Virus record (IMG/VR): IMGVR_UViG_3300021057_000028
Span: 1 to 34,496 of that record
DNA length: 34,496 nucleotides
Reading direction: 5' to 3' (one strand)
Source: a virus
In this document: one piece after another, positions 794 to 28,003 of the stretch
Position numbering within the stretch: position 1 is the stretch's first letter
Layout: every line of letters starts with the position of its first letter
Made by a program: the position numbers and the translations under genes
The notes under the pieces: generated by a model
Databases searched by the model: none
What the model was told of the DNA's origin: nothing
What the model saw: the letters and a program-made list of their open reading frames with translations, nothing else

Positions 794-3468
794 TATTTCG
801 TCCTTCCTTCGATCTGCTGCGCTTCGGTCTCGAACATCCCCACGTCGAGCTTGATTGGTCGCTTCGCGACGGGCGCGGGTCCCATCGGCGCGGCCTGAGG
901 TGCGCTCGGCGCCTTCGCCCCCTGCATGAGCGCGATGAAGTCCGGCTCGAACGTCCCGTCCGCGGGCGTCTCGAGCAGGATGCTGATCGCCTTCTTCCGC
1001 TCGCGCGGCATCGAGTCGAGCTTCCCCTCGCGGTCGAGGCCCGCGATCTCGCTGCGCGCCATGTCCTGCATCTGTACGAACAGATGCGGGTACACGAACT
1101 TGACCGTGCGGATGCCCTCGCGATTCAGCTTCCCCTGCTTCATCTCACGGATGATCGACTCCGGATGCAGCGCGGCGTTACGCTTGCGCTCGTAGTCCGC
1201 GAGCTGGCTGTCGGTGTACCGCTCGCGCGTGCGCCCGAAGGCGTCCTTCTGGACGACCGGCTGCGGCGCGTTGATGGCGAGGAACGTGAGCGCACGCGTC
1301 GCGACGGCCGCGACCGACGCGCTCGTGTTCGGCGCGTGCCGCGGGAGGTCGCCCGCGAACTCGCCGAGGCGCTTCTGCAGGAGCTCCGGGTTGGCGGCGA
1401 GCTGGCGGACCTCGCCGATCTCTTTCTGCACGGCCTCACGGGCGCGCGGCTTCACCGACGGAGACAGGCGGTCGAGGATCTCCTTGCCCTTGCCGTCGAA
1501 GAGGCGGTTCAGGCCGTTCTCGATGCCCTTCTCGAACCTCTCCGTCGCGGCCTTCACCGCGCCGAGCCGCTCCATCGTCGTGAGCGGCTTCGTCATGATG
1601 TCGGTGGCGAGACCGAGCACGCCGCCGAGCGAGCGCCCTTGCTCCTCGAGCTGCTGCTGGCGAAGACGGTTGACGACGCCGGCCTCTTTGCGCGCGTCGG
1701 CGAACGCGGACTCGAACGCGTCGAGGTCGCTTCGCATCTGCGCGAGCTGCTTCACCTCGGCCGGTCCGAGGTCGGCGTACTTCTCGATCGCCGCGATGCG
1801 CTGGCGGTTGCCGTCGATGAACGCCTCGGCGCTGCGGACGCCCTGGCGGATGTCGTCGTCGGCGGTGCCGCGCAGGTCGTTGAGGATCGACCGCGCCTTG
1901 TCGAAGTCGACCTCTGGCTTCGGGACGCCGCTGACCTGATCGATGCTGACGCCGAAGCGGCCGCCGAAGTCCTGGCGCCGCGCGAGCGCTGCCGAGAAGG
2001 TCTCGTTCCATTCGCGGTTCGCCGCTCCGGCCGCGCCCCACACCGCTTCGTCCTCGAGCCCGACGCGGAGCTCCTCATACGCCTGCGAGAAGAGGTTCTC
2101 TCCTTCGCTGCGCAGATACGGCGCCTTGCCGAAGCCGGAGACCTTGCCGACCTCCTGCTTCAGCTTGTAAGTCGACATGTACAGATCGCGGAGGGCGTTC
2201 TCGCCGCCGCCGTCGACCATCGACGCGTGCTTCGCGTACGTGTCCTGCAGCATCTTGCGCAGGCGCCGGACGCCGACCTCGTTGCCGCCCTTCATCGCGG
2301 TCTGCTCGAGCTCGGTGACGAGCGCGTCCACCCGCTGCGTCATCTTCACGGCGGCGTCGGCCGCGACGTCGAGCTTCGTGGGATCGAGCAGCTTCGCGAA
2401 CTGGTCAGGCCGCTCGGTGAAGTTGACGCGGTTGAGGACCTCCTCGCCACGCATCACGGCGCTGCCGCGCTCGGCGAGGATGCGCGCGTTCTTGTCGAGG
2501 ATCTCCTCCTGCTTCACGATCCGCGTGACGCGGTCCGCGTAGGCCTTGCGCAGCACCTCCTCGAGCTCGGCGTTGCCGCCCGCGCGATTCGCCGCGTACC
2601 ACGCCGCCGCCTTGTCGACGACGCCTGAGGCCGGTCCGCCCTTGCGAAGCGCCGCGGCGGTCTCCTTCGCGAGCGCTTGGAGCTCGTCGGTCATGACGGC
2701 CGCCTGCTCGCTCGTCGCGCCGGCCTTGCGGAGGTCAGTGACGATGCTCTCCGTCGCGCCGAGGTCCTCGCGGAGCACGCGCCCTGCGCCCGGCGTCCCT
2801 GCTACCTCGTCGAGCAGCCCCGACGGACGCGGCCCCACGGCGTGCCGGAGCGAGCCGAGCCCATGCGCGACGGCGCCGATGCCAGCGCCGACGCCCGCGC
2901 CCAGGAGGCCGTCCTTCACGGCCGTCGCGAAAAGCTTCTCACCGGTCGGATCGGGCTCGCCGAGCGCGTCCTCGCTGACGGCCTTGCCGAAGCCGAGGAG
3001 CGTACCCTCGACGCCGCCGCGAGCGCCCATCGACGCCATGCTGCCGAGCAGGCCCTCACCGACGCGCGCCGCGACCTGCTCCTCGACGACGGCACCGGCG
3101 CCGGTGATGCCCTCGCCCGCGCCGATGAAGAGCCCCGCGGCCTCGCCGCCGAGCGTCGAGTAGGGGTTGGTCTCCTTCGCGACGCGGAGGCCGTGTTGCA
3201 TGTCGGCGCGTGCCCGCGCGCCGCCGAGCATGTCCGCGCCCTCGACGAGCGCGAGGTCGGTGAGGCCGCCGCTCGCGACGCGTCCGGCGCCGAACACGGC
3301 CGAGGCGCCCATGCCGAGCAGGCCGCCGAACTCACGCTCGTACTTTCCCTCGGGGCCCGCGCGAGACACGACGGCACCCGCGGCGACAGCCTGCGCGAGG
3401 TCCTCTTGAGGGACCGTCGCAGCTTCGCCGGTCGGCAGCGTGATGTCGACGAGCCCGCCGTCCGCCAT
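793..3468 (-). CDS. Large internal virion (ejection-type) protein
   Basis: This 891-residue protein lies downstream of the tail hub gene and of two other large alpha-helical proteins. Residues 40-200 are rich in Gly/Ala and contain NPYSTLGGEAAGLFIGAGEG and other amphipathic glycine-rich stretches. Such segments are typical of podovirus proteins that are stored in the head and ejected into the cell envelope. The middle, about residues 230-700, is almost all charged helix and likely coiled coil. The C-terminus ends in a Pro/Ala linker and a short Lys-rich tail. I see no lysozyme or transglycosylase active-site motif. The ATG overlaps the upstream stop (TAATG). The role as an ejection or internal protein is inferred from size, composition and position; no named family is recognised. 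Confidence 0.6.
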   Translation of the reverse strand: MADGGLVDITLPTGEAATVPQEDLAQAVAAGAVVSRAGPEGKYEREFGGLLGMGASAVFGAGRVASGGLTDLALVEGADMLGGARARADMQHGLRVAKETNPYSTLGGEAAGLFIGAGEGITGAGAVVEEQVAARVGEGLLGSMASMGARGGVEGTLLGFGKAVSEDALGEPDPTGEKLFATAVKDGLLGAGVGAGIGAVAHGLGSLRHAVGPRPSGLLDEVAGTPGAGRVLREDLGATESIVTDLRKAGATSEQAAVMTDELQALAKETAAALRKGGPASGVVDKAAAWYAANRAGGNAELEEVLRKAYADRVTRIVKQEEILDKNARILAERGSAVMRGEEVLNRVNFTERPDQFAKLLDPTKLDVAADAAVKMTQRVDALVTELEQTAMKGGNEVGVRRLRKMLQDTYAKHASMVDGGGENALRDLYMSTYKLKQEVGKVSGFGKAPYLRSEGENLFSQAYEELRVGLEDEAVWGAAGAANREWNETFSAALARRQDFGGRFGVSIDQVSGVPKPEVDFDKARSILNDLRGTADDDIRQGVRSAEAFIDGNRQRIAAIEKYADLGPAEVKQLAQMRSDLDAFESAFADARKEAGVVNRLRQQQLEEQGRSLGGVLGLATDIMTKPLTTMERLGAVKAATERFEKGIENGLNRLFDGKGKEILDRLSPSVKPRAREAVQKEIGEVRQLAANPELLQKRLGEFAGDLPRHAPNTSASVAAVATRALTFLAINAPQPVVQKDAFGRTRERYTDSQLADYERKRNAALHPESIIREMKQGKLNREGIRTVKFVYPHLFVQMQDMARSEIAGLDREGKLDSMPRERKKAISILLETPADGTFEPDFIALMQGAKAPSAPQAAPMGPAPVAKRPIKLDVGMFETEAQQIEGRTK

Positions 3469-5252
3469 TACTTCTTGACCCTCACCGAGTCAGGGATCTG
3501 CGGGTTGATGCCCTTGAGGCGCTGCTCGAAGATCTGCACCGCGCGCGGGTCGTACCCGGCCTTCTTCCTCGCCTCGAGTTCCTGGAAGAAGTTGTCTGCC
3601 TGGTTGATCGCGTTGCGCTGCTCGGCGGGGGACTTCGCGCCCTCGAAGGCCTTGGAGATCATTTCGCGCTCGGACTCGGAGGCACCGGAGCCGGTGATCT
3701 GCTTCTGGTACGCGAGCTTGATCTTGTCCCAGTCGCCGCGCGAGACGCGCTCCTCGTCGCTGAGGCCGACGGACTTGTTGAGCGCCCATGCCATCGGGTT
3801 GAGTGCGCCGAGGCCCTCGGGACGACGAGCGATCTTCTCGCGGAAGTCCGCCATCGGTCCGACGCCGGGCAGGCCCTCGTCAGGCTTCGTGCCCGCGAGG
3901 CGGCGCTTTGCGTTGTCGACGGCGGAGCGGCCCTCAACGAGGTCCTTGTCGGAGAGGTCTTTCCCGAGCTTCTGGACCTGCTCGGGGATGTTGCCGCCGG
4001 CCTTGTTGATCGCGTCGAGGCGCTCGATCTCCAGCTTGTCCCTTTTCAGGCCGAGCTCGGCGATCTCCATGCTGCGCTTCCACGCCTTCTCCTCGGCCGC
4101 CGCCTGCGCTGCCGCCGCCGCGCGCTGCTGCGCCAGGAAGGACTGGTACGCCTCGCCAGCGATCTGCGTCTTCAGCGCGTCCTGCTGGTGCTGGAACTGG
4201 TTCGCCACCTGCTGCGCCTGCGTGCGGAGCGCGGGGATGCCGAGCCGCTCGGCGTCGGCCTGAACCTTCTGCTTCGCGGCCTCGAGCATGAGGTTTCGCG
4301 TCTGCATCGCCGCGAGCCGGCGATCGCCGGTCTCCTGCAGCATCTGACCGAAGATGGTCTGACGCGCGCCGAGCGCGGTCTTCTTGTTGTCGATCTGCTG
4401 CTGCTGCTCGCGAATGGCCGTGTCGATGTGCGTGTTGAGCATCTTCATCGCGCGGTCACCCTCGCCCGCGCGAGCCATCAGCATCGAGCCGAGGACCATC
4501 AGCGCCTTCTCGGCGGCGTTGCCCATGGCGCCCTTGAAGTCGACCTTCTGCTCGGCGATCTCGCTCGCGAGCTGCTCGTTGCGCGCGAGGAAGGCCTCGT
4601 GCTTCTCCGCTGCCTTCGCGTCCGCCTCCATCTGGAGCTGCGCGTGACGCTCCTTGATTTGCGCCTCCTGCTCCTGCAGCGAGGCGATGCCCTCGGCGCG
4701 CGTCGCCTGGTTCACACCCTGTTCGAGCGCGAGCTCCTTGTCGGTGTCGTAGTCACCCACCATGCGCTGGCGCGAGGCATCGAACGCGGCCTTGAGCCCC
4801 GCGCCCGAGCCACCGCCGCCAGGGCCGCCGATGAGCGCGGGACGGCGCAGCTGGTAACGCGGGTCGAGCGTGGGCGACATAGGGATGTCCGTGTCCGCCG
4901 TCGCGCCGGGCTCGATCGGCGTGAGGCGCTGCATCGTGCCGCCTGGGCTCGTGACCTCGCCCGCTGCGCCCTCGCGCTCGAACGACGTCGGATTGCGCGT
5001 GCCGATGCCGAGCTTCTGACCGAGCAAGCCGGCGACAGGGCCGGTGAGCCCCATGCCGGGGTTGCCCGCGGCCATCAGCGCCTGCACCGCGGGGTTGTTC
5101 GCGATGCGCACCGCGCGCCCGCGCTCGAGCGCGAGCCGCTCTTGGAACGGCGTGGGAGCGGCCGCAGCCGCACCGAGCCGCTGGCTGAACTCGGGCACGC
5201 CCTGGAGCGTCGGGTTCAGCCCTGCGAGGACGTCGTCGTCGAACTGACTCAT
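3468..5252 (-). CDS. Coiled-coil internal virion protein
   Basis: The product is 594 residues, read from the ATG at 5250-5252. That ATG overlaps the TGA of the upstream gene (ATGA), which is why I chose it over a longer open frame reaching 5819 that only shadows the upstream gene. The N-terminal 150 residues are Pro/Gly/Ala-rich and likely disordered, with a GGPGGGGSGAG linker. Residues about 160-430 are long charged helices rich in Gln, Glu, Ala and Lys (for example REQQQQIDNKK). The C-terminal third contains TGSGASESEREMISKAF followed by an acidic/aromatic helix, a pattern seen in several podovirus internal proteins. Together with its two neighbours it probably makes up the ejected core proteins. 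No enzymatic motif is seen. Confidence 0.6.
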   Translation of the reverse strand: MSQFDDDVLAGLNPTLQGVPEFSQRLGAAAAAPTPFQERLALERGRAVRIANNPAVQALMAAGNPGMGLTGPVAGLLGQKLGIGTRNPTSFEREGAAGEVTSPGGTMQRLTPIEPGATADTDIPMSPTLDPRYQLRRPALIGGPGGGGSGAGLKAAFDASRQRMVGDYDTDKELALEQGVNQATRAEGIASLQEQEAQIKERHAQLQMEADAKAAEKHEAFLARNEQLASEIAEQKVDFKGAMGNAAEKALMVLGSMLMARAGEGDRAMKMLNTHIDTAIREQQQQIDNKKTALGARQTIFGQMLQETGDRRLAAMQTRNLMLEAAKQKVQADAERLGIPALRTQAQQVANQFQHQQDALKTQIAGEAYQSFLAQQRAAAAAQAAAEEKAWKRSMEIAELGLKRDKLEIERLDAINKAGGNIPEQVQKLGKDLSDKDLVEGRSAVDNAKRRLAGTKPDEGLPGVGPMADFREKIARRPEGLGALNPMAWALNKSVGLSDEERVSRGDWDKIKLAYQKQITGSGASESEREMISKAFEGAKSPAEQRNAINQADNFFQELEARKKAGYDPRAVQIFEQRLKGINPQIPDSVRVKK

Positions 5253-7234
5253 CGGTACCTCTGCACGCGATCGGCCATCAGGCCGGCCAGGACCTCGTCC
5301 TGGAGTTGCTGCTTCTGCGCGAGGTGCCCGACGCCCGCGAGGGCGAGCTTGGTGCCCCCCGCGCCGTCGATGGCGAGCAGGCCCGTTGCCGGGTCGCGCT
5401 GCACCGCGGGCGCCGTCACGGGATGGCGCGCCATCTCCTGCGCGGACGCCGGACCCACCTGAGGACGTGCCGGGTCCGTGCCGGGCACGCCAGGACGGTA
5501 GTGGTACATCGCCGGAGAGAGCCCCTGCGCGAACTGCTGCGTGACCGGATCGCTGCCGCCGACGCTCGGCCCGGCCTGCGACGCTGCGTGGCGCTGCGCG
5601 TCGACGTCGCCGAGGAGACCGAGCGCCTGTGCGCGCATCGCGTCGTGGCGAGGGTCGCGCGGCGGCGCGCGGTGGCCCTCGTCCCACGCGCTCGCGCGCA
5701 TCTCGCGCACCGTGGCCGCGAGCGGGTGGCCCTGCTCGGCGAGCTCGCGCAGGCGCGAGGGGGGCATCGCGGCGAGCTTGCGCGCGTCGTCGAGGGCCGC
5801 TCGGTGGCCCTCGTCCCATGCGCCGGCCTTCGCCGTGCGGATCGGGTCCGGGTCACCGTTCGCCATGAGGCCGGCAGCGAAGCCCATGTTGACGGCGTTG
5901 CTCTTGGAGCGCTCGTCGCTGTAGAAGCCTCCGCCGTAGCCGCCGCGGTAGCCGCCGTACGGGACGACCGGGTCCTGAGGCATGCCGTACCCGCCGCCTG
6001 AGGCGAGCGAGCCGAACATGTTTGCGCCCATGCGCAGCGCGCCCATGACGGCGGGGTTCGGCCCCGTGGGTGGCGGAGGCGCGGGGGCGACCTGCGCGCC
6101 AACGAGACCCGCCGCGTGCGGGCTGGGAGATGCGCCGCCGAGCATGGCGCCCGCGCTCCGCGGGTCGTACGGCATCGGGGGAGGCGCGCCGGCCATGCGT
6201 CCGACGAGCCCGCCGCCGCCGATGCTGCCGCCGACGGCGCCACTGAGGGGCACGATGTTCTGCTTCGCGGTGACGTCGGAGGCCATCCCGAGCGAGATGC
6301 CCGTCATCACGCCTTGGCCGATCATGCCGACGGTCTGGTTCGTCTGCTGTCGGTCGCGCGCGTCGCGCTGCTGCTGCAAGGCGATGGCGCTCTGCTGCTG
6401 ACCGGTGACCGCCGCCTGCCTGTTGCCGCGGGCCTGGAGGTCGGCGACCTTCACTTGCTGCTCGTTGCCGTACATGCCCTGGCTGTACGCGTCGTTCTGC
6501 GCGCGCTGCGCGGCGTTGATCTGCGCCTGCGCCTGGGCCATCTGCGCATCGATCGTCTGGCCGCCGTAGTCCTGCTGGCGCATGCCGGAGTAGGCGCCGT
6601 ACGCCGCTTGCTCTGCCGCCATTCGCTCCTGCGCGGCGTTGATCTGCGCCTGGTTGCTGATGGCGCTCTGCATCGCCGCGGTGTTGCCGGCGGCGTTCTG
6701 CTGCGCGAGCGCGATGCCCGCAGCTCCGCGCGCGCTCGCCGCCGCGCTCGACTGCTCGGCTGCGGCCTGCTGCATCTGGCGGTCGGCCTGCATCTCGGCG
6801 ATCGACGGGACGAGGCCCATCGCGCGGCGCTCCATGAGGTCCGCCATCCCGAGCTGCTTCTCGCGAGCTCGCAACGCGTTCTCGCGGTTGCCGAGGGCCC
6901 CCGTGAAGTCGATGCGCTCGCCCTGCCGGCCCTGCGCGGCCTCCGCCTGCGCGCGGTAGTAGTCCCAATCGCGCCTTGCGTTGCCGGGGTCGCTGCCCCA
7001 CGTGTACGCGGTCTCCAGGCCCTGCTGCTTCTGGTCGCGCGTTTCGTTGAGGACCTTGTCTCGGATCTTCTTTCGGATCTCTTCGCCGGCATCACCGGCC
7101 ATGCCGCTACCGAGGATGAGATTCCGGTCGTACTCCGACATGCTGCCGACGATCTCGTCGAACCGGCGCTGGTCCTCCGTGCCCCATCCTGCAGCCGCGG
7201 CGTCGTTCGGATCGCTGAATGCCTGGTACGCCAT
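5249..7234 (-). CDS. Internal virion protein with S74-chaperone-like C-terminal motifs
   Basis: The product is 661 residues from the ATG at 7232-7234, which overlaps the stop of the hub gene (TGATG); the longer open frame upstream is a shadow of that gene. Residues 1-140 are charged helix. Residues 150-300 are a Gln/Ala-rich segment (QMAQAQAQINAAQ). Residues 340-440 are Pro/Gly-rich linker (GGYRGGYGGGFYSDE). Two short motifs, SDVTAKQN (319-326) and SDERSKSN (439-446), look like the SDxRxKxNI signature that opens peptidase S74 intramolecular chaperone domains. YHYRPGVPGTDP (577-588) and the Ala/Gly-rich end also resemble the S74 YRYKPGV...GVMAQD region. AWDEGHRA occurs twice (472-479, 516-523). 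The normal catalytic GVMAQE-type motif is replaced by GPASAQEMARHP, so self-cleavage is doubtful. Role as an ejection protein is inferred from position. Confidence 0.55.
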   Translation of the reverse strand: MAYQAFSDPNDAAAAGWGTEDQRRFDEIVGSMSEYDRNLILGSGMAGDAGEEIRKKIRDKVLNETRDQKQQGLETAYTWGSDPGNARRDWDYYRAQAEAAQGRQGERIDFTGALGNRENALRAREKQLGMADLMERRAMGLVPSIAEMQADRQMQQAAAEQSSAAASARGAAGIALAQQNAAGNTAAMQSAISNQAQINAAQERMAAEQAAYGAYSGMRQQDYGGQTIDAQMAQAQAQINAAQRAQNDAYSQGMYGNEQQVKVADLQARGNRQAAVTGQQQSAIALQQQRDARDRQQTNQTVGMIGQGVMTGISLGMASDVTAKQNIVPLSGAVGGSIGGGGLVGRMAGAPPPMPYDPRSAGAMLGGASPSPHAAGLVGAQVAPAPPPPTGPNPAVMGALRMGANMFGSLASGGGYGMPQDPVVPYGGYRGGYGGGFYSDERSKSNAVNMGFAAGLMANGDPDPIRTAKAGAWDEGHRAALDDARKLAAMPPSRLRELAEQGHPLAATVREMRASAWDEGHRAPPRDPRHDAMRAQALGLLGDVDAQRHAASQAGPSVGGSDPVTQQFAQGLSPAMYHYRPGVPGTDPARPQVGPASAQEMARHPVTAPAVQRDPATGLLAIDGAGGTKLALAGVGHLAQKQQLQDEVLAGLMADRVQRYR

Positions 7235-10200
7235 CACTTCCTCGTGCTGGTTGCGAGATGTGGAGTCGCCTTCGTCGCGCCCTGCTTCGGCGCGATGTCG
7301 ACGCTGAGGCCGACCCACGTGAAGCCCTGCCCGGTGCCGAGCGTCGCGGGCGCCGTGTCCGTCACGCGAAACCGCATGCGCTGCCCCTGCGCGCGCGGGC
7401 GGAAGTCGAGCTGACGGAGCCCCGTCAGCGTCTCCGCCTCGGTCCACGTCTTGTCGTTGCTCGCCGAGTAGTCGGCGCCGTCGTACGCGGTCTCGATCTT
7501 GAGCCCCGCTGCGCTGTTGCGCGTGAACAGGATCATCGCGTTGTAGACGCGCTGCTGCTGCTGCAGCCCGAACTTGCAGTCCACGGTCTCCCACTTCGCG
7601 GTGACCCAAGCGCCCGTGTCGAGGTACGTCGTGCGGTCCTCGATGTAGACGCGCGCGTCGGTCGCGAGCCACGCGTAGCGGTACGCGCTGCCGCTCCACA
7701 CGACGGCCGAGTCCTGCGCTGGAGTGTCCGCGGTGCCCGCGCTGTTCTTGCGGCGATCGGTCGAGACCCAATCTTTGATCGCAAGGTCGAACACCAGCGT
7801 GCGGCCGTTGCCGCTCACCTGGCCGTCCGCCTCCGACGCAGCGAGCTCGAAGTAGACCACGCTCTCCAGCGGGTCGAGCCGCGCCGAGCTCACGATGGGA
7901 TACGCCGCCAGCGTCGTCGCGACCGACTCGCCCACCCACTGCACAGCGCGACCACGGTCGAGTAGCTCGATGCCGCGCTCGCTCTGGAAGAAGATCCCCA
8001 CCGCCGTGACGACGACGCTCCGAGGGTCGATGCACCCGACATCAGACGCGATGAGCTGCGGCGCGCCCAGGCCGCCCGCGGCGCCGTTGTCCGTCGGCGG
8101 CTCGCACGGCAGCGCGTAGACCTGCCTGCGCGTGAACGCGAACACGAACCCGTCCTGCGAGGCGATCGCGGTCCCGCCCGAGAGCGGCTGGCTGAAGATG
8201 GGCGAGAACCACGTGCCTTCGCCGTAGACGGGCTGCCCGGAGACCCACACCTCCGACTCCGACAGGCCTACGAGACACCCGAGGTGCTCAGTCACGTCGA
8301 CGAACGCGGGCGGCTGCTGCTTCGCCTGCGCCGTGCCGATGACGCCAGGTTGCGTGTAGAGCTTCGCGCGCGTCGTCAGCGTCGCGTCCTCCACGCTGTC
8401 GGCGAACGACACCGTCGCGGCCGTCGTGACGTTGTCGACCGTTCCGAGGCGGTAGTAGGGGGCCGTTCCGCCCGTCGCCGTCCGGTAGAACGCGACGCGC
8501 ACCGGGCTCGCCTGCGAGCTCGATCCGAGCCGCGAAGAGATGACCAGCGGGTTCACCGCCACGGTGACCGTCTGGTTCGCGGGGCTCCGCGTGTCGCTTG
8601 GACGCGAGACGGCCGACTGGTGCCAGTTTCCCTCGGCGTCGACCTCCTCGTAGACGGCCACGTATCGAAACGTCCCGGTGATGCCGGTGCCCGCCACCGA
8701 GGTCGTGGGCTTGTTGGGGCGGAAGATGAAGCCCGCCTCCGCGACGCGCGCGCCGTCGCTGTAGAACGTGCACGCGCCGCCGAAGTATTGACTCGTCCTC
8801 ACGCGCGCATTGCGCCAGCGAGCCGACGAGCCGAAGTCGAGCGCGACGAGACACGAGCCGCTGTTCGCGGCGCTCCTGCGCGGCGTGAAGGGCACGTAGA
8901 CCTTGGTGCCGCTCACGAGCGCCGTCGCCCATCCGGAGTAGAAGACGCTCGACAGGTTCGGGTACGGCACCGCCACCGGGCGGAACGTCGTCGCGGCGTC
9001 GGTGTTCATGTCGGCGATTGCGACGGTGATTGTCTGGAACGCGTCGTAGCTCTCCTCGGTGTTCACCGGCCCGTAGAACCGCCCGCCGTAGACGAACGGA
9101 CGCCCCACGAGTGACGTGTTTTGCACCGTCGTCGGCGTCCCCGTTCCCGCCGCCGCGCCGCCGCTCGTCGTGATCCCGAGGTGGCGGAGGTGAGGGAGGC
9201 TCGATGCGGTGTGGTTCAGCCACGCGCGCGCGTTGCCCGCCGTCGCGCTCGGCACGACGTAGAGCGCGCTCGCCGTGCCGGTGAACGTCCCCACCGTGGC
9301 CGTCGTCGCGAGCACCACGGTAATGGCCGCCGGGCTGAAGCCGCGCGCGCGGATGTTCGTTGTCTCCGTCCAGACGCACCAGAGCGTGTCCGTCGCGTTC
9401 CCGCCGACGTCGAGCGCCCCCACCGTCGTCGAGCTCGTGTTGATGGCTGCCGACTCGAGCACGCCGGTCTGATCGAACGTGACGAGCTTGATGCGGTCGG
9501 TCCCGGCGTCCGCGGTCTGGTACAGCAGCGCAGCGCGCGCCTGCGAGGCGTGCGGCAGCGAGCAGGTGCGGACCTTCGCGCTCGTCGGTCGAGCGTCCGT
9601 CGCGAGGTTCGTCATCGCGACCCATCCGGTCGTGATGGTCGCGGGCGACGTCGTATCCAGGTAGTGCGCCTCGATGTTCGTCGACGCGCTCGAGTACCGG
9701 ACCGCGATGAGGTACGCGCCGACGGCGACGATGCTCATCTGGTTGTTGCTCGCGTTCGACGTGCTTCCGATCTGCGTCGGCGGGCTCACGATTACGCCCG
9801 TCGTCGGGTTGATGACCGCGCCGAACATGTACGCCGCGGCGACGCTGGAGGACGTGGCCGTCGCGCTGAGCCACACCGCGCCGATGTATCCGTTGGTCGT
9901 GATGGCGACGTCCGCCAGGTAGCCGAGATCGACGCCGAGGTTCGGGAGCTCGATCGTGCTCGCCGTGCACTCGGGCAGGTACCCGCGCTGCGGCACCCAC
10001 CGCGCCGAGATGGCGTCGTATGCCTCGCAGCGCGCGAGGTCGCTCGCGGCGGCGGCGACGCGGCAGATCTGCTGCCCGTCGGCGAAGAGCTTGTAGCCCG
10101 ACGCGGCGCTCGTCGCGTCGATGCGCGACTGCGTGAGCGGCGTGCCGAAGCCGTACCGCTTGCCCAGGCCCATGCGCTGCACCTGGCGCACGTTCTCGTT

Positions 10201-19495: not shown

Positions 19496-19858
19496 CTACG
19501 CTGCCCGGGGCAGAGTGAGTGCAGTGTGCACGTATCGCGTCGACGCGAACGGCCACGAGTGCGTGATGGGGATGCGCTCGGGATAGCTGCCGAGCACCAG
19601 CGAAATCAGTCGACGCGCGAGGCCTTTGCCGCGCAGCTCAGGCGGCACGTAGGCGTAATGCAGTACGCCGTCGGAGCCGCAAGCCCACGCGTGCACGGTG
19701 CGATCGTTGGCAAGCACGATGCACGTGGCACCGGCGTCGAGGATGCGGTCGACGAGCTCGAACCGCTTGGGTTTCGCGAGACCCTCGTACGACGCCGACT
19801 GCGCCCACGTGGGCACGACGTAGCGGCGGTCCGTCGGGGTCATCGCGCGGTGGATCAT
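19496..19858 (-). CDS. GNAT-family acetyltransferase-like protein
   Basis: This 120-residue protein contains the acetyl-CoA-binding motif A of the GNAT fold: LHYAYVPPELRGKGLARRL (about residues 66-84). It has the Val/Tyr strand, the Arg-Gly-x-Gly-Leu/Ala pyrophosphate loop and the following helix. Upstream, AGATCIVLANDRTVHAWAC gives the expected beta2-beta3 strands. It is shorter than most GNATs (about 140-170), and the C-terminal strands are abbreviated. Its position one gene away from the small terminase is notable, since small GNAT-like proteins recur in packaging or virion modules of podoviruses. The substrate is unknown. It may acetylate a host or virion protein, or be a structural use of the fold. 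The ATG overlaps the upstream TGA (ATGA). Confidence 0.65.
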   Translation of the reverse strand: MIHRAMTPTDRRYVVPTWAQSASYEGLAKPKRFELVDRILDAGATCIVLANDRTVHAWACGSDGVLHYAYVPPELRGKGLARRLISLVLGSYPERIPITHSWPFASTRYVHTALTLPRAA

Positions 19859-26150: not shown

Positions 26151-26340
26151 CTCTCCACCCCTGATCGGTTGTCAGCCTGCTACCTATTTTCGACTCGTGT
26201 ATTCCGCATGCATCGTTCGTGTTCAGTAGAAGTCGCTGCGGCACCGTTCAGCGACGGAGGGACTGTTACGCTCTGCGCGCGCGTGCACCCCTGAACACCG
26301 CAGACAAATGAACGCGGCTTGCGTGCCGCACGCTCGTGCT
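26151..26340. promoter_or_regulatory. Non-coding region between the Cro-like gene and the integrase operon
   Basis: This 190-bp stretch holds no supported gene. It contains an inverted repeat GTCGCTG/CAGCGAC (26232-26238, 26249-26255), a wider pair GTGTTCAG/CTGAACAC (26219-26226, 26291-26298) and an A/T-rich patch at 26190-26220. A promoter for the minus operon is likely here, but I cannot place -35 and -10 elements with confidence. The inverted repeat also has hairpin character and could terminate the Cro-like message. An attP site for the serine integrase, which usually lies near its gene, could be here. Confidence 0.4.
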
Positions 26341-26577
26341 TCAGCTTCCGGTGGCGTCGAGGTTGGGCGACGAGTCCGCCGCCACGAGCCAGTCCTCGAC
26401 GGGGATGTCAGTCACCTTCCGGATTGCGACCGCCACATGCAACGGGACGGGGTGGCCCAGAATCCACCGCGACACGTTCTGCTGGCTTTCGCCGATCTCT
26501 GCCGCGAACGTCGCCTGCTTGTGCCCGTGGTCTTTCAACCACTGGCGCAGGCGCGCGCCTCCACGTTTCTGCTCCAT
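26341..26577 (-). CDS. Cro-like XRE-family helix-turn-helix regulator
   Basis: This 78-residue protein has an XRE-type helix-turn-helix at about residues 19-40 (KQATFAAEIGESQQNVSRWI), preceded by a helix (RLRQWLKDHG) and followed by AVAIRKVTDIPVEDWL. This is the pattern of small Cro or C2-type regulators (lambda Cro, YdaS-like). It is transcribed away from the larger repressor gene across an 83-bp gap, the usual divergent immunity arrangement. It probably promotes lytic growth by shutting off the repressor promoter and turning down its own. The two symmetric GTAC dyads lie just upstream of its start. The call as Cro rather than CII or excisionase rests on size and position. Confidence 0.75.
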   Translation of the reverse strand: MEQKRGGARLRQWLKDHGHKQATFAAEIGESQQNVSRWILGHPVPLHVAVAIRKVTDIPVEDWLVAADSSPNLDATGS

Positions 26578-26579
26578 GC

Positions 26580-26597
26580 GTACGCCATAACACGTAC
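26580..26597. promoter_or_regulatory. Operator-like dyad O1
   Basis: The sequence is GTACG, eight bases, CGTAC: a perfect 5-bp inverted repeat. It sits directly upstream of the Cro-like start. Its centre is 22 bp from that of O2, about two helical turns, which would let dimers bind cooperatively on one face. Confidence 0.55.
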
Positions 26598-26601
26598 AGA
26601 C

Positions 26602-26619
26602 GTACCGCGCTAGTGGTAC
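26602..26619. promoter_or_regulatory. Operator-like dyad O2
   Basis: The sequence is GTACC, eight bases, GGTAC: the same spacing as O1 and O3 with a compensatory change in both arms (C/G swapped). The symmetric change supports selection for dyad symmetry rather than chance. Confidence 0.55.
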
Positions 26620-26660
26620 ACGATTGCGCGTAAACCGAGACCGTACCTATCCTCGCGACA

Positions 26661-27140
26661 ATGCCTGCGAAACCCGTATTCACCGAGGAGCAGTACGAAA
26701 TTCTCCACAGTGCCGCTAGGCGCGTTTGGAAGACGAAGTTCCAGGCCGAGGGCAAGACGCAGAAGGAGATGGCGTTCGCGCTGGGCGTGTCGCAGCAGAC
26801 CGTCTCGAACCTGTTGAAGGGCACGTATCGGCCCGGGCTGAAGGTCGCGACGGAGATCGCCATTCTCGACGGGAAGGAGCTCGAGGACCTCATCGGGGAT
26901 TTTGCGGCGCCAGGCGCTGCGGCCGTCGCGCTGATGAACGGCGGCCTTGCCTCGCACCCGTTCGCGAATCTCGATGTTTGTATCCAGTTCTTCGCGAGCT
27001 CGAAGCACTGGAGTCCGTGGACGATTGCGGCCGCGCGCGCGGGCTTCTTCGGGAACGCCGACTTCGCACCGCCGGAATGGGCAGGGAAACTGGATCACTT
27101 GGAAAAGGCGCTGGAACGCGCAAGAAAGGGGGCCGCGTGA
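26661..27140 (+). CDS. CI-like prophage repressor with N-terminal XRE HTH
   Basis: This 159-residue protein has a helix-turn-helix at about residues 33-52 (TQKEMAFALGVSQQTVSNLL), an XRE/lambda-repressor-like DNA-binding domain placed after a 30-residue lead helix. The C-terminal 80 residues are helical and aromatic (NLDVCIQFFASSKHWSPWTI) and show no LexA-type Ala-Gly cleavage site or Ser/Lys dyad, so it is not an SOS-cleavable repressor of the lambda kind. Position, divergent from a small Cro-like gene and with symmetric operators in between, supports a lysogeny repressor. No Shine-Dalgarno is seen before the ATG. It shares a GTGA overlap with the downstream lipoprotein gene, so the two are co-expressed. 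Confidence 0.7.
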   Translation: MPAKPVFTEEQYEILHSAARRVWKTKFQAEGKTQKEMAFALGVSQQTVSNLLKGTYRPGLKVATEIAILDGKELEDLIGDFAAPGAAAVALMNGGLASHPFANLDVCIQFFASSKHWSPWTIAAARAGFFGNADFAPPEWAGKLDHLEKALERARKGAA

Positions 27141-27562
27141 AGCGACTGCTCGCGGTGATGCTGCTCGCAGGGTGCGACCCGCACTATGCGACGCATCCCG
27201 TTCGACCAGACGATGAGGAGGCCTGGAAGGGACAACCCATCATCGAAATCGAGAAACACGGCGTCTTCTCGACGCTGGAACGACAGGAACGGACCCTTTC
27301 CGACGGCACTCATTGGTGGGTTTTCCAGCAGTGTCGCCAGGGCAACGTCGAGTGCCGCACCGGCACCTTCGCCACCCCAGGACCAGGCGGACAAGCTGTC
27401 GTTGGCGGCTCCCGAACTACGTGCTCTGGCGGCAACGTTCGATGCTGCTTTCACCAGTTCACCATCGAGGAGGGCCGCGTCGCCGAGTATCACGCTCGTG
27501 GCGACTGCTGGGTGAACTGCGAGATGCGTCCGCCTGCCGTCGCGAAAGCCTGCCGGTACTAG
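27137..27562 (+). CDS. Cys-rich lipoprotein, candidate lysogenic-conversion or exclusion factor
   Basis: The product is 141 residues from a GTG at 27137-27139 that overlaps the repressor stop. Longer frames upstream are shadows of the repressor. The N-terminus has a short basic start, a hydrophobic helix and a lipobox LLAGC ending at Cys13, the signature for lipoprotein signal peptidase. The mature part has eight further Cys residues (CRQGNVEC, TTCSGGNVRCC, CWVNCEMRP, KAC), enough for four disulfides, which fits an exported protein. Because it is co-transcribed with the repressor it is likely made in the lysogen. Known prophage lipoproteins of this setting block superinfection or alter the cell surface, and that role is inferred here. 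No family is recognised. Confidence 0.65.
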   Translation: MKRLLAVMLLAGCDPHYATHPVRPDDEEAWKGQPIIEIEKHGVFSTLERQERTLSDGTHWWVFQQCRQGNVECRTGTFATPGPGGQAVVGGSRTTCSGGNVRCCFHQFTIEEGRVAEYHARGDCWVNCEMRPPAVAKACRY

Positions 27563-27657
27563 CCGGACCGTCGAAAGAACGGAATTTTCGCAGCCGCTTT
27601 CCAGTAGCGGTTTCGCCGGCGTACGCGCGTTGCACGTGAAACGCACGTCCGTACGCC
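27563..27657 (+). other. Non-coding leader, repressor operon end to early promoter
   Basis: A short inverted repeat CCGCT/AGCGG (27594-27598, 27606-27610) followed by TTT could be a weak terminator for the repressor-lipoprotein message. GGCGTACG (27619-27626) and CGTACGCC (27650-27657) form a wide inverted repeat that includes one arm of O3. I see no open frame that looks coding here. Confidence 0.3.
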
Positions 27658-27668
27658 TTGACGCGTAC
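27651..27668. promoter_or_regulatory. Operator-like dyad O3 over the early promoter
   Basis: GTACGCCTTGACGCGTAC has arms GTACG and CGTAC separated by eight bases (CGTACG on both sides if extended by one). It matches O1 and O2 in length, spacing and arm sequence. The -35 hexamer TTGACG (27658-27663) lies inside it, so binding would block RNA polymerase. No other place I checked has this arrangement. Confidence 0.6.
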
Positions 27669-27685
27669 GCATAGACGCGTATAGT
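27658..27685 (+). promoter_or_regulatory. Early promoter (sigma-70 type) of the plus-strand operon
   Basis: TTGACG (27658-27663, five of six bases of the -35 consensus), a 16-bp spacer and TATAGT (27680-27685, five of six of the -10 consensus) make the best promoter seen in the window. Transcription would start near 27692. The first gene has GGAGG and an ATG at 27710, about 18 bases after that. The direct repeat GACGCGTA (27660-27667, 27674-27681) adds further symmetry. Its overlap with the O3 dyad suggests repression in the lysogen. Confidence 0.75.
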
Positions 27686-27709
27686 CCTCCCATCACGATG
27701 GAGGACGCG

Positions 27710-28003
27710 ATGGCGAAGGACAAGGACGAGGGGGTGAGTCCGACGGTGAGCGAGTCGGCGCTGGGAGCGCTGCTCGACTCGGAGCCGCAGTTGCTGCCGC
27801 AGCACTGGAAGGCGCCGAAGGGCCTCGGCGAGGCGCTCTGCGGTTCGTTCGGGCCGCAGTCGTACACGCGCATCGGCGTGACGTGCGTGGACTGCCGGCG
27901 CGCGCTCGCGAAGCCGCGGAAGACGCGCGCACCGCGCCTCACCGACGAGGACGGCATCGACGAACCGTGGGAGCGCGCGATGGTGCGCGGGGGCCGCCGA
28001 TGA
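27710..28003 (+). CDS. First gene of plus early operon, small protein with CxxC, unknown function
   Basis: The product is 97 residues from the ATG at 27710, preceded by GGAGG five bases upstream. An ATG at 27698 has no such site and would be only a few bases from the predicted transcript start. The protein is acidic and Ser-rich at the N-terminus (KDEGVSPTVSESALGALL), with one CVDC (about residues 59-62) and a basic end (RRALAKPRKTRAPR). No family is recognised. Genes in this place are often anti-host or regulatory. Confidence 0.55.
   Translation: MAKDKDEGVSPTVSESALGALLDSEPQLLPQHWKAPKGLGEALCGSFGPQSYTRIGVTCVDCRRALAKPRKTRAPRLTDEDGIDEPWERAMVRGGRR

Follow-up and report, generated by a model that had tools for sequence, protein, structure and literature searches.

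A candidate lambda-like immunity switch with overlapping GTACGC-N6-GCGTAC dyads in a group of uncultivated temperate phages

The immunity region of phage lambda follows the order OL-rexB-rexA-cI-OR-cro, with the operators of one repressor on both sides of its gene. The locus described here raises the question of whether matching dyads at two promoters of another phage serve a comparable purpose. The window, i.e. the whole 34,496-base virus record that was analysed, is a temperate tailed phage. Its minus strand encodes a serine integrase, a helicase, a VRR nuclease, a primase/helicase-like AAA protein, the small and large terminase subunits, a portal protein and a major capsid protein, while an exonuclease and a Sak4-like annealing protein are encoded on the plus strand. 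Two regulator genes lie at the divergence point, where a first-pass annotation had noticed three 18-bp dyads, GTACSN8SGTAC, and read them as a lambda-like OR/OL layout. According to the sequence comparisons presented below, these dyads are quite likely operators of the phage's own lambda-like lysis/lysogeny switch, with a revised list of sites. The features of the locus are the following (ranks and bit scores refer to a motif built from relatives):

26341..26577, minus strand: 78-aa HTH protein, putatively Cro-like, first gene of the leftward operon
26575..26612, minus strand: predicted leftward (Cro-like) promoter, a consensus reading
26580..26597: O1, GTACGCCATAACACGTAC, covering the -10 and the start at the leftward promoter; rank 3, 19.9 bits
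26588..26605: O1', TAACACGTACAGACGTAC, fills the leftward promoter spacer and overlaps O1; rank 8, 10.0 bits
26602..26619: O2 of the first-pass annotation, GTACCGCGCTAGTGGTAC, over the leftward promoter -35; rank 103, 0.1 bits
26616..26633: candidate site GTACACGATTGCGCGTAA, covering the -35 of the putative repressor promoter; rank 4, 16.0 bits
26624..26660, plus strand: putative repressor promoter, read from the sequence and the equivalent stretches of relatives
26661..27140, plus strand: 159-aa HTH protein, putative CI-like repressor
27137..27562, plus strand: 141-aa predicted lipoprotein with lipobox LAGC, overlapping the end of the repressor gene by 4 nt
27651..27668: O3, GTACGCCTTGACGCGTAC, an exact copy centred on the early-promoter -35; rank 1, 25.9 bits
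27658..27685, plus strand: predicted early rightward promoter, TTGACG-N16-TATAGT, preceding the exonuclease/Sak4 operon
27665..27682: O4, GTACGCATAGACGCGTAT, fills the early spacer and the first -10 bases; rank 2, 20.4 bits

The phage group and its gene order

Six relatives of this phage were found in IMG/VR. L004 was found by protein searches, and a DNA-only scan of all IMG/VR with the early operator/promoter pattern TTGACNCGTACGCN6GCGTA returned five contigs, namely the L004 contig, L015, L016, L017 and L018. L015 and L016, retrieved by the DNA pattern alone, match the window in regulator pair and gene order; in L017 and L018 the pattern lies inside ribonucleotide-reductase-like and phosphatase-like genes and was taken as chance. 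An alignment of four repressors led to L019, L022 and L024, and a last scan using all seven repressors gave no further relatives. L005 and L006 were weak HTH matches, and the former, having no exact dyads, was set aside. Moreover, no relatives appeared in 84,980 cellular genomes, and tblastn against 50,697 phage records gave only weak HTH matches and no close relative of either regulator. The proteins of the six relatives share 41-64% identity (repressors) and 26-47% identity (small HTH proteins) with those of the window. A 15.8-kb contig, L008 (IMGVR_UViG_3300021057_000045), encodes a terminase 76% identical to that of the window and ends before the expected immunity region.

The seven phages have a common gene order, in which a leftward small HTH gene is followed by the HTH repressor gene, a lipoprotein or membrane gene and a rightward early promoter. 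In the window, the 78-aa gene faces the integrase, replication and late genes on the left, and the 159-aa gene, the lipoprotein gene and the early promoter ahead of the recombination operon succeed one another rightward. A lipoprotein-like or membrane gene also follows the repressor in L004, L015, L016, L019 and L022, and this position resembles a slot for exclusion or lysogenic-conversion genes. The encoded proteins are short and diverse in sequence, and their genes mostly overlap the repressor gene by 4 nt; in L024 a lipoprotein-like gene (1425-1976, minus strand) occupies the post-repressor place on the opposite strand. Elsewhere in the window, a long ORF at 5249-7414 (minus strand), with no PHROGs match, contains SDVTAKQN and SDERSKSN stretches recalling the Peptidase_S74 chaperone motif of tail proteins, and a GNAT-like acetyltransferase below the Pfam cut-off is encoded at 19496-19858 (minus strand), between the terminase genes.

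Dyads and promoters at both ends of the repressor cassette

A pattern search of the whole record recovered exact copies of GTACSN8SGTAC solely at 26580-26597, 26602-26619 and 27651-27668, which bears out the three dyads of the first-pass annotation, as well as the 22 bp centre to centre between the first two and the place of the third, about 1.05 kb off, where it overlaps the early -35 (TTGACG, 27658-27663). All three are intergenic, none falling in a coding region. Only 0.019 exact copies were expected, and three copies occurred in 0 of 2000 dinucleotide-preserving shuffles. When two mismatches were allowed, 53 matches were seen in the window versus 38 expected, a mild enrichment; the pattern discriminates weakly at this level and, therefore, the comparison with relatives carries the weight.

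The early promoter, TTGACG-N16-TATAGT, is the only sigma-70-like promoter detected by a strict scan of 26300-28000 (0.2 expected), and across the seven phages it takes the form of TTGACS, 16-17 bases and a TA-rich hexamer. At this promoter the earlier list of sites was right in O3 and incomplete in missing O4, a one-mismatch dyad that shares the 4-bp GTAC with O3 and has equivalents in L004, L015 and L016. With O3 on the -35 and O4 over the spacer and the -10 of the predicted promoter, binding at these sites would exclude RNA polymerase. Moreover, 26 of the 29 invariant columns of the early-region alignment sit within a 39-bp operator/promoter box.

Since GTAC is its own reverse complement, adjacent dyads share half-sites at a 14-bp pitch, and the conserved early-promoter unit consists of two overlapping dyads with a common central GTAC at this pitch. 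Overlapping dyads so spaced could not obviously be filled simultaneously. It is conceivable, at a rather low probability, that the repressor and the Cro-like protein select among overlapping registers along a single ladder of half-sites, and not between separate operators; such an exclusive-register switch, which we consider just as doubtful, would differ from the discrete row of sites in lambda. In L015, three dyads at 1124, 1138 and 1152 (reversed coordinates) follow one another in 14-bp steps and extend into the beginning of the small HTH coding sequence.

The leftward promoter consists of a -35 TAGCGC (26612-26607), 17 nt, a -10 TATGGC (26589-26584) and 6 nt before the ATG. The -35 reads TTGCGC in L004, L015 and L016 and resembles this hexamer in the other phages, and the distance from -35 to ATG is identical in six of the seven phages and one base longer in L015. 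Given this constant short spacing, the Cro-like mRNA is predicted to be leaderless. The two -35 boxes, leftward and early, are 0.83-1.24 kb apart in the seven phages.

Conserved O1/O1' dyads between divergent HTH_3 genes are also found in L004, L015 and L016: O1 is aligned and conserved in these three relatives, and O1', a site missed by the first reading, has the equivalent TAACGC-N6-GCGTAC among their top leave-one-out sites. In these four phages, GTACGC-N6-GCG(T)TA fills the -35/-10 spacer at both promoters, the leftward copy of the window being altered, and a second dyad sharing a half-site with it covers the early -35 (O3) or overlaps the leftward -10 and start (O1). L019 retains O3, O1 and an altered spacer dyad. 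Overall, GTACGC-N6-GCGTAC-type dyads stand over both lytic promoters in five of the seven phages, and the most diverged members, L022 and L024, carry altered dyads at the same places.

The symmetric C/G change in both arms of O2 had been regarded as a sign of selected symmetry. This argument is dropped because the alignment shows GTACGGCGCAAG at the O2 position of three relatives, followed by unconserved letters. O2, which the relatives' motif places 103rd in the window, is rejected as a selected symmetric operator, and even as a dyad it appears doubtful, its left arm being conserved and its right arm not. A two-mismatch dyad at 26616-26633, which overlaps O2 by 4 bp and had also escaped notice, is a candidate autoregulatory site of the repressor gene; a clear counterpart was not established in the relatives. 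It covers the -35 of the putative repressor promoter, composed of TTGCGC (26624-26629), 18 nt, TATCCT (26648-26653) and 7 nt to the ATG. This promoter was not picked up by the strict scan of 26300-28000. By eye, it ends a few bases before the start codon in the window and its relatives, and the repressor mRNA is predicted to be leaderless or nearly so.

Regulator proteins and the motif test

Both regulators belong to the HTH_3 family, with values of E 1e-9 and 38.8 bits for the 159-aa protein and E 8e-7 and 29.5 bits for the 78-aa protein (curated cut-off 23), and structure models display an HTH fold in both (pLDDT 82 for the 78-aa model). A homologue of the 78-aa protein is encoded at the same location in all six relatives. 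In the 159-aa protein, the recognition helix and a C-terminal block are conserved among relatives. This block (residues about 100-157, K.WS.WT.AAA..G.FG..DF..PEW...LD.LE) is more strongly conserved than the HTH and has no match among Pfam or PHROGs families. In the family profile search, the 159-aa protein matched HTH families only and not the S24 peptidase family; it has no recognisable C-terminal S24/LexA-type self-cleavage domain of the kind that characterizes lambdoid CI and, thus, induction should not proceed by CI-type self-cleavage. DdrO of Deinococcus and Rep of the Salmonella-phage Rep-Ant system combine an HTH with a helical C-terminal part, and are controlled by another protein instead of self-cleavage. 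Both were retrieved by Foldseek with the 159-aa model (PDB 6jq1 and 5d50), weakly (E 0.004 and 0.03), and the likeness rests on the HTH, since pLDDT in the C-terminal part of the model is about 50 or lower. In the window itself, no gene for Ant or for a DdrO-cleaving protease was recognised.

Based on gene position, the 159-aa protein is likely the CI-like repressor and the 78-aa protein its Cro-like counterpart. The roles might be swapped, with the 78-aa protein as lysogenic repressor and the 159-aa protein as a lytic (Cro-like or activator) regulator acting on the same sites: both are HTH_3 proteins, a 78-aa repressor is possible, and O1 and O1' over the 78-aa gene's own promoter would also fit autorepression. 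This exchange is, however, unlikely. The 78-aa gene heads the leftward operon that includes the integrase, replication and late genes, an Ant-like gene (E 2e-4) comes after the small HTH gene of L004, and the 159-aa gene is coupled to a lipoprotein/membrane gene, like lysogenic genes in lambda and TP-J34 (PMC3952083). Moreover, the recognition helix of the repressor is conserved where the early operator is conserved, while the helix of the small protein differs between the window and L004, L015 and L016.

To evaluate the sites, a matrix was built solely from the relatives' sites and then applied to the window, and the same leave-one-out procedure was followed for each phage. The four best window sites were O3, O4, O1 and 26616-26633, although the O3 training sites include part of the -35, which ties the motif in part to promoter sequence and favours promoters. 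Two further window sites exceeded 12 bits (19649 and 23449, both in genes), with 0.4 such sites expected by chance. The best leave-one-out matches were located at the two promoters in L004 (6139, 4931, 6153), L015 (2021, 2007, 1160) and L016 (2738, 2752, 1485, 1477), the last two in reversed coordinates, as well as in L019 (7023, 5922, 7037) and L024 (1828, 876). L022 fits the common motif poorly, its best match (6869) being just upstream of the early -35 and nearly equalled by a gene-internal site. When the -35 was left out, the resemblance between left and early sites was attained in 23 of 5000 shuffles for L022 and in 191 of 5000 for L024. The lambda OR/OL reading is largely supported because the layout, with one family of sites over both promoters, recurs in seven phages and the leave-one-out motif finds the sites; what changes is the list of sites, including the loss of O2.

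L024 has the most diverged repressor, and its early dyad reads ATATGC-N6-GCATTA, with ATGC in place of the inner ACGC in both arms; the early half-sites of L022 are mostly TTACC. The recognition helices are likewise changed in L024 and L022 (TQPALSNL and SQQSASAL, respectively, versus SQQTVSNL). This co-variation is suggestive of the 159-aa protein reading these sites, two cases being no proof. It also bears on the idea that the phage senses its host through sites for a host regulator, e.g., a damage-response repressor. Promoter-covering dyads are typical of host repressors too, but in L022 and L024 the sites vary in step with the phage repressor family, and in all seven phages their position with respect to the regulator genes is constant; such tracking of the phage repressor would be unexpected for a host regulator, and we regard this explanation as very improbable. 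Finally, chance or composition effects around GC-rich promoters, despite the mild enrichment of the two-mismatch pattern, deserve hardly any credence, since the exact copies are far above expectation, kept in relatives and predictive of new phages, and the leave-one-out test already contradicts them.

Proposed switch and its place among known systems

Read from these sequences, binding, protein-site preference, autoregulation and induction in the phage's own switch are envisaged as follows. In the lysogen, the 159-aa repressor would be translated, along with the membrane lipoprotein, from its own rightward leaderless mRNA, and the post-repressor lipoprotein or membrane protein is predicted to act in this state. 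Repressor dimers on GTACGC-N6-GCGTAC would block the -35, spacer and first -10 bases of the early recombination promoter, and on O1/O1' they would cover the leftward Cro-like promoter from its spacer through the -10 to the start, denying RNA polymerase access to both lytic promoters. At high level, repressor on 26616-26633 could limit its own synthesis from the -35 beneath, like OR3 for lambda CI. When the repressor falls, the leftward promoter would make the 78-aa Cro-like protein, which probably binds overlapping sites in the space that separates both genes and turns repressor synthesis off.

With lambda this locus shares the divergent arrangement of repressor and Cro-like gene around a set of operators, operators of the same family at an early promoter beyond the repressor, a membrane-associated gene downstream of the repressor and between the two operator regions (rexAB in lambda), a predicted leaderless repressor mRNA and recombination genes in the operon past the far operator. 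In contrast, the sites are GTACGC-N6-GCGTAC and not the 17-bp sites of lambda, and overlapping dyads are found at both promoters (two at the early one), where lambda has three separate operators in OR and another three in OL. Moreover, the 159-aa repressor lacks a CI-type S24 domain, a serine integrase lies on the Cro side, the Cro-like mRNA is also predicted to be leaderless, and there is no sequence relation past the HTH fold. The Streptococcus thermophilus phage TP-J34 has a short CI-like repressor and divergent Cro, an antirepressor gene after cro, and a lysogeny module that includes the exclusion lipoprotein Ltp (PMC3952083). The short divergent pair, the antirepressor-like gene after cro (in L004) and the lipoprotein in the module are common to both groups, whereas the hosts differ and the lipoproteins were unrelated in the searches made.

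No description of the operator sequence or the repressor family was found, GTACGC appearing in the literature checked only within primers. Most likely, this is a new immunity family that follows the already known lambda-like plan. The sequence by itself outlines an immunity circuit open to testing in an uncultivated phage group of seven members, whose operator/promoter pattern can retrieve unknown relatives out of metagenomes and in which L022 and L024 provide a natural set for matching recognition-helix residues to operator bases. The lambda plan of operators flanking a repressor and membrane-gene cassette is seen here without a recognisable CI-type self-cleavage domain.
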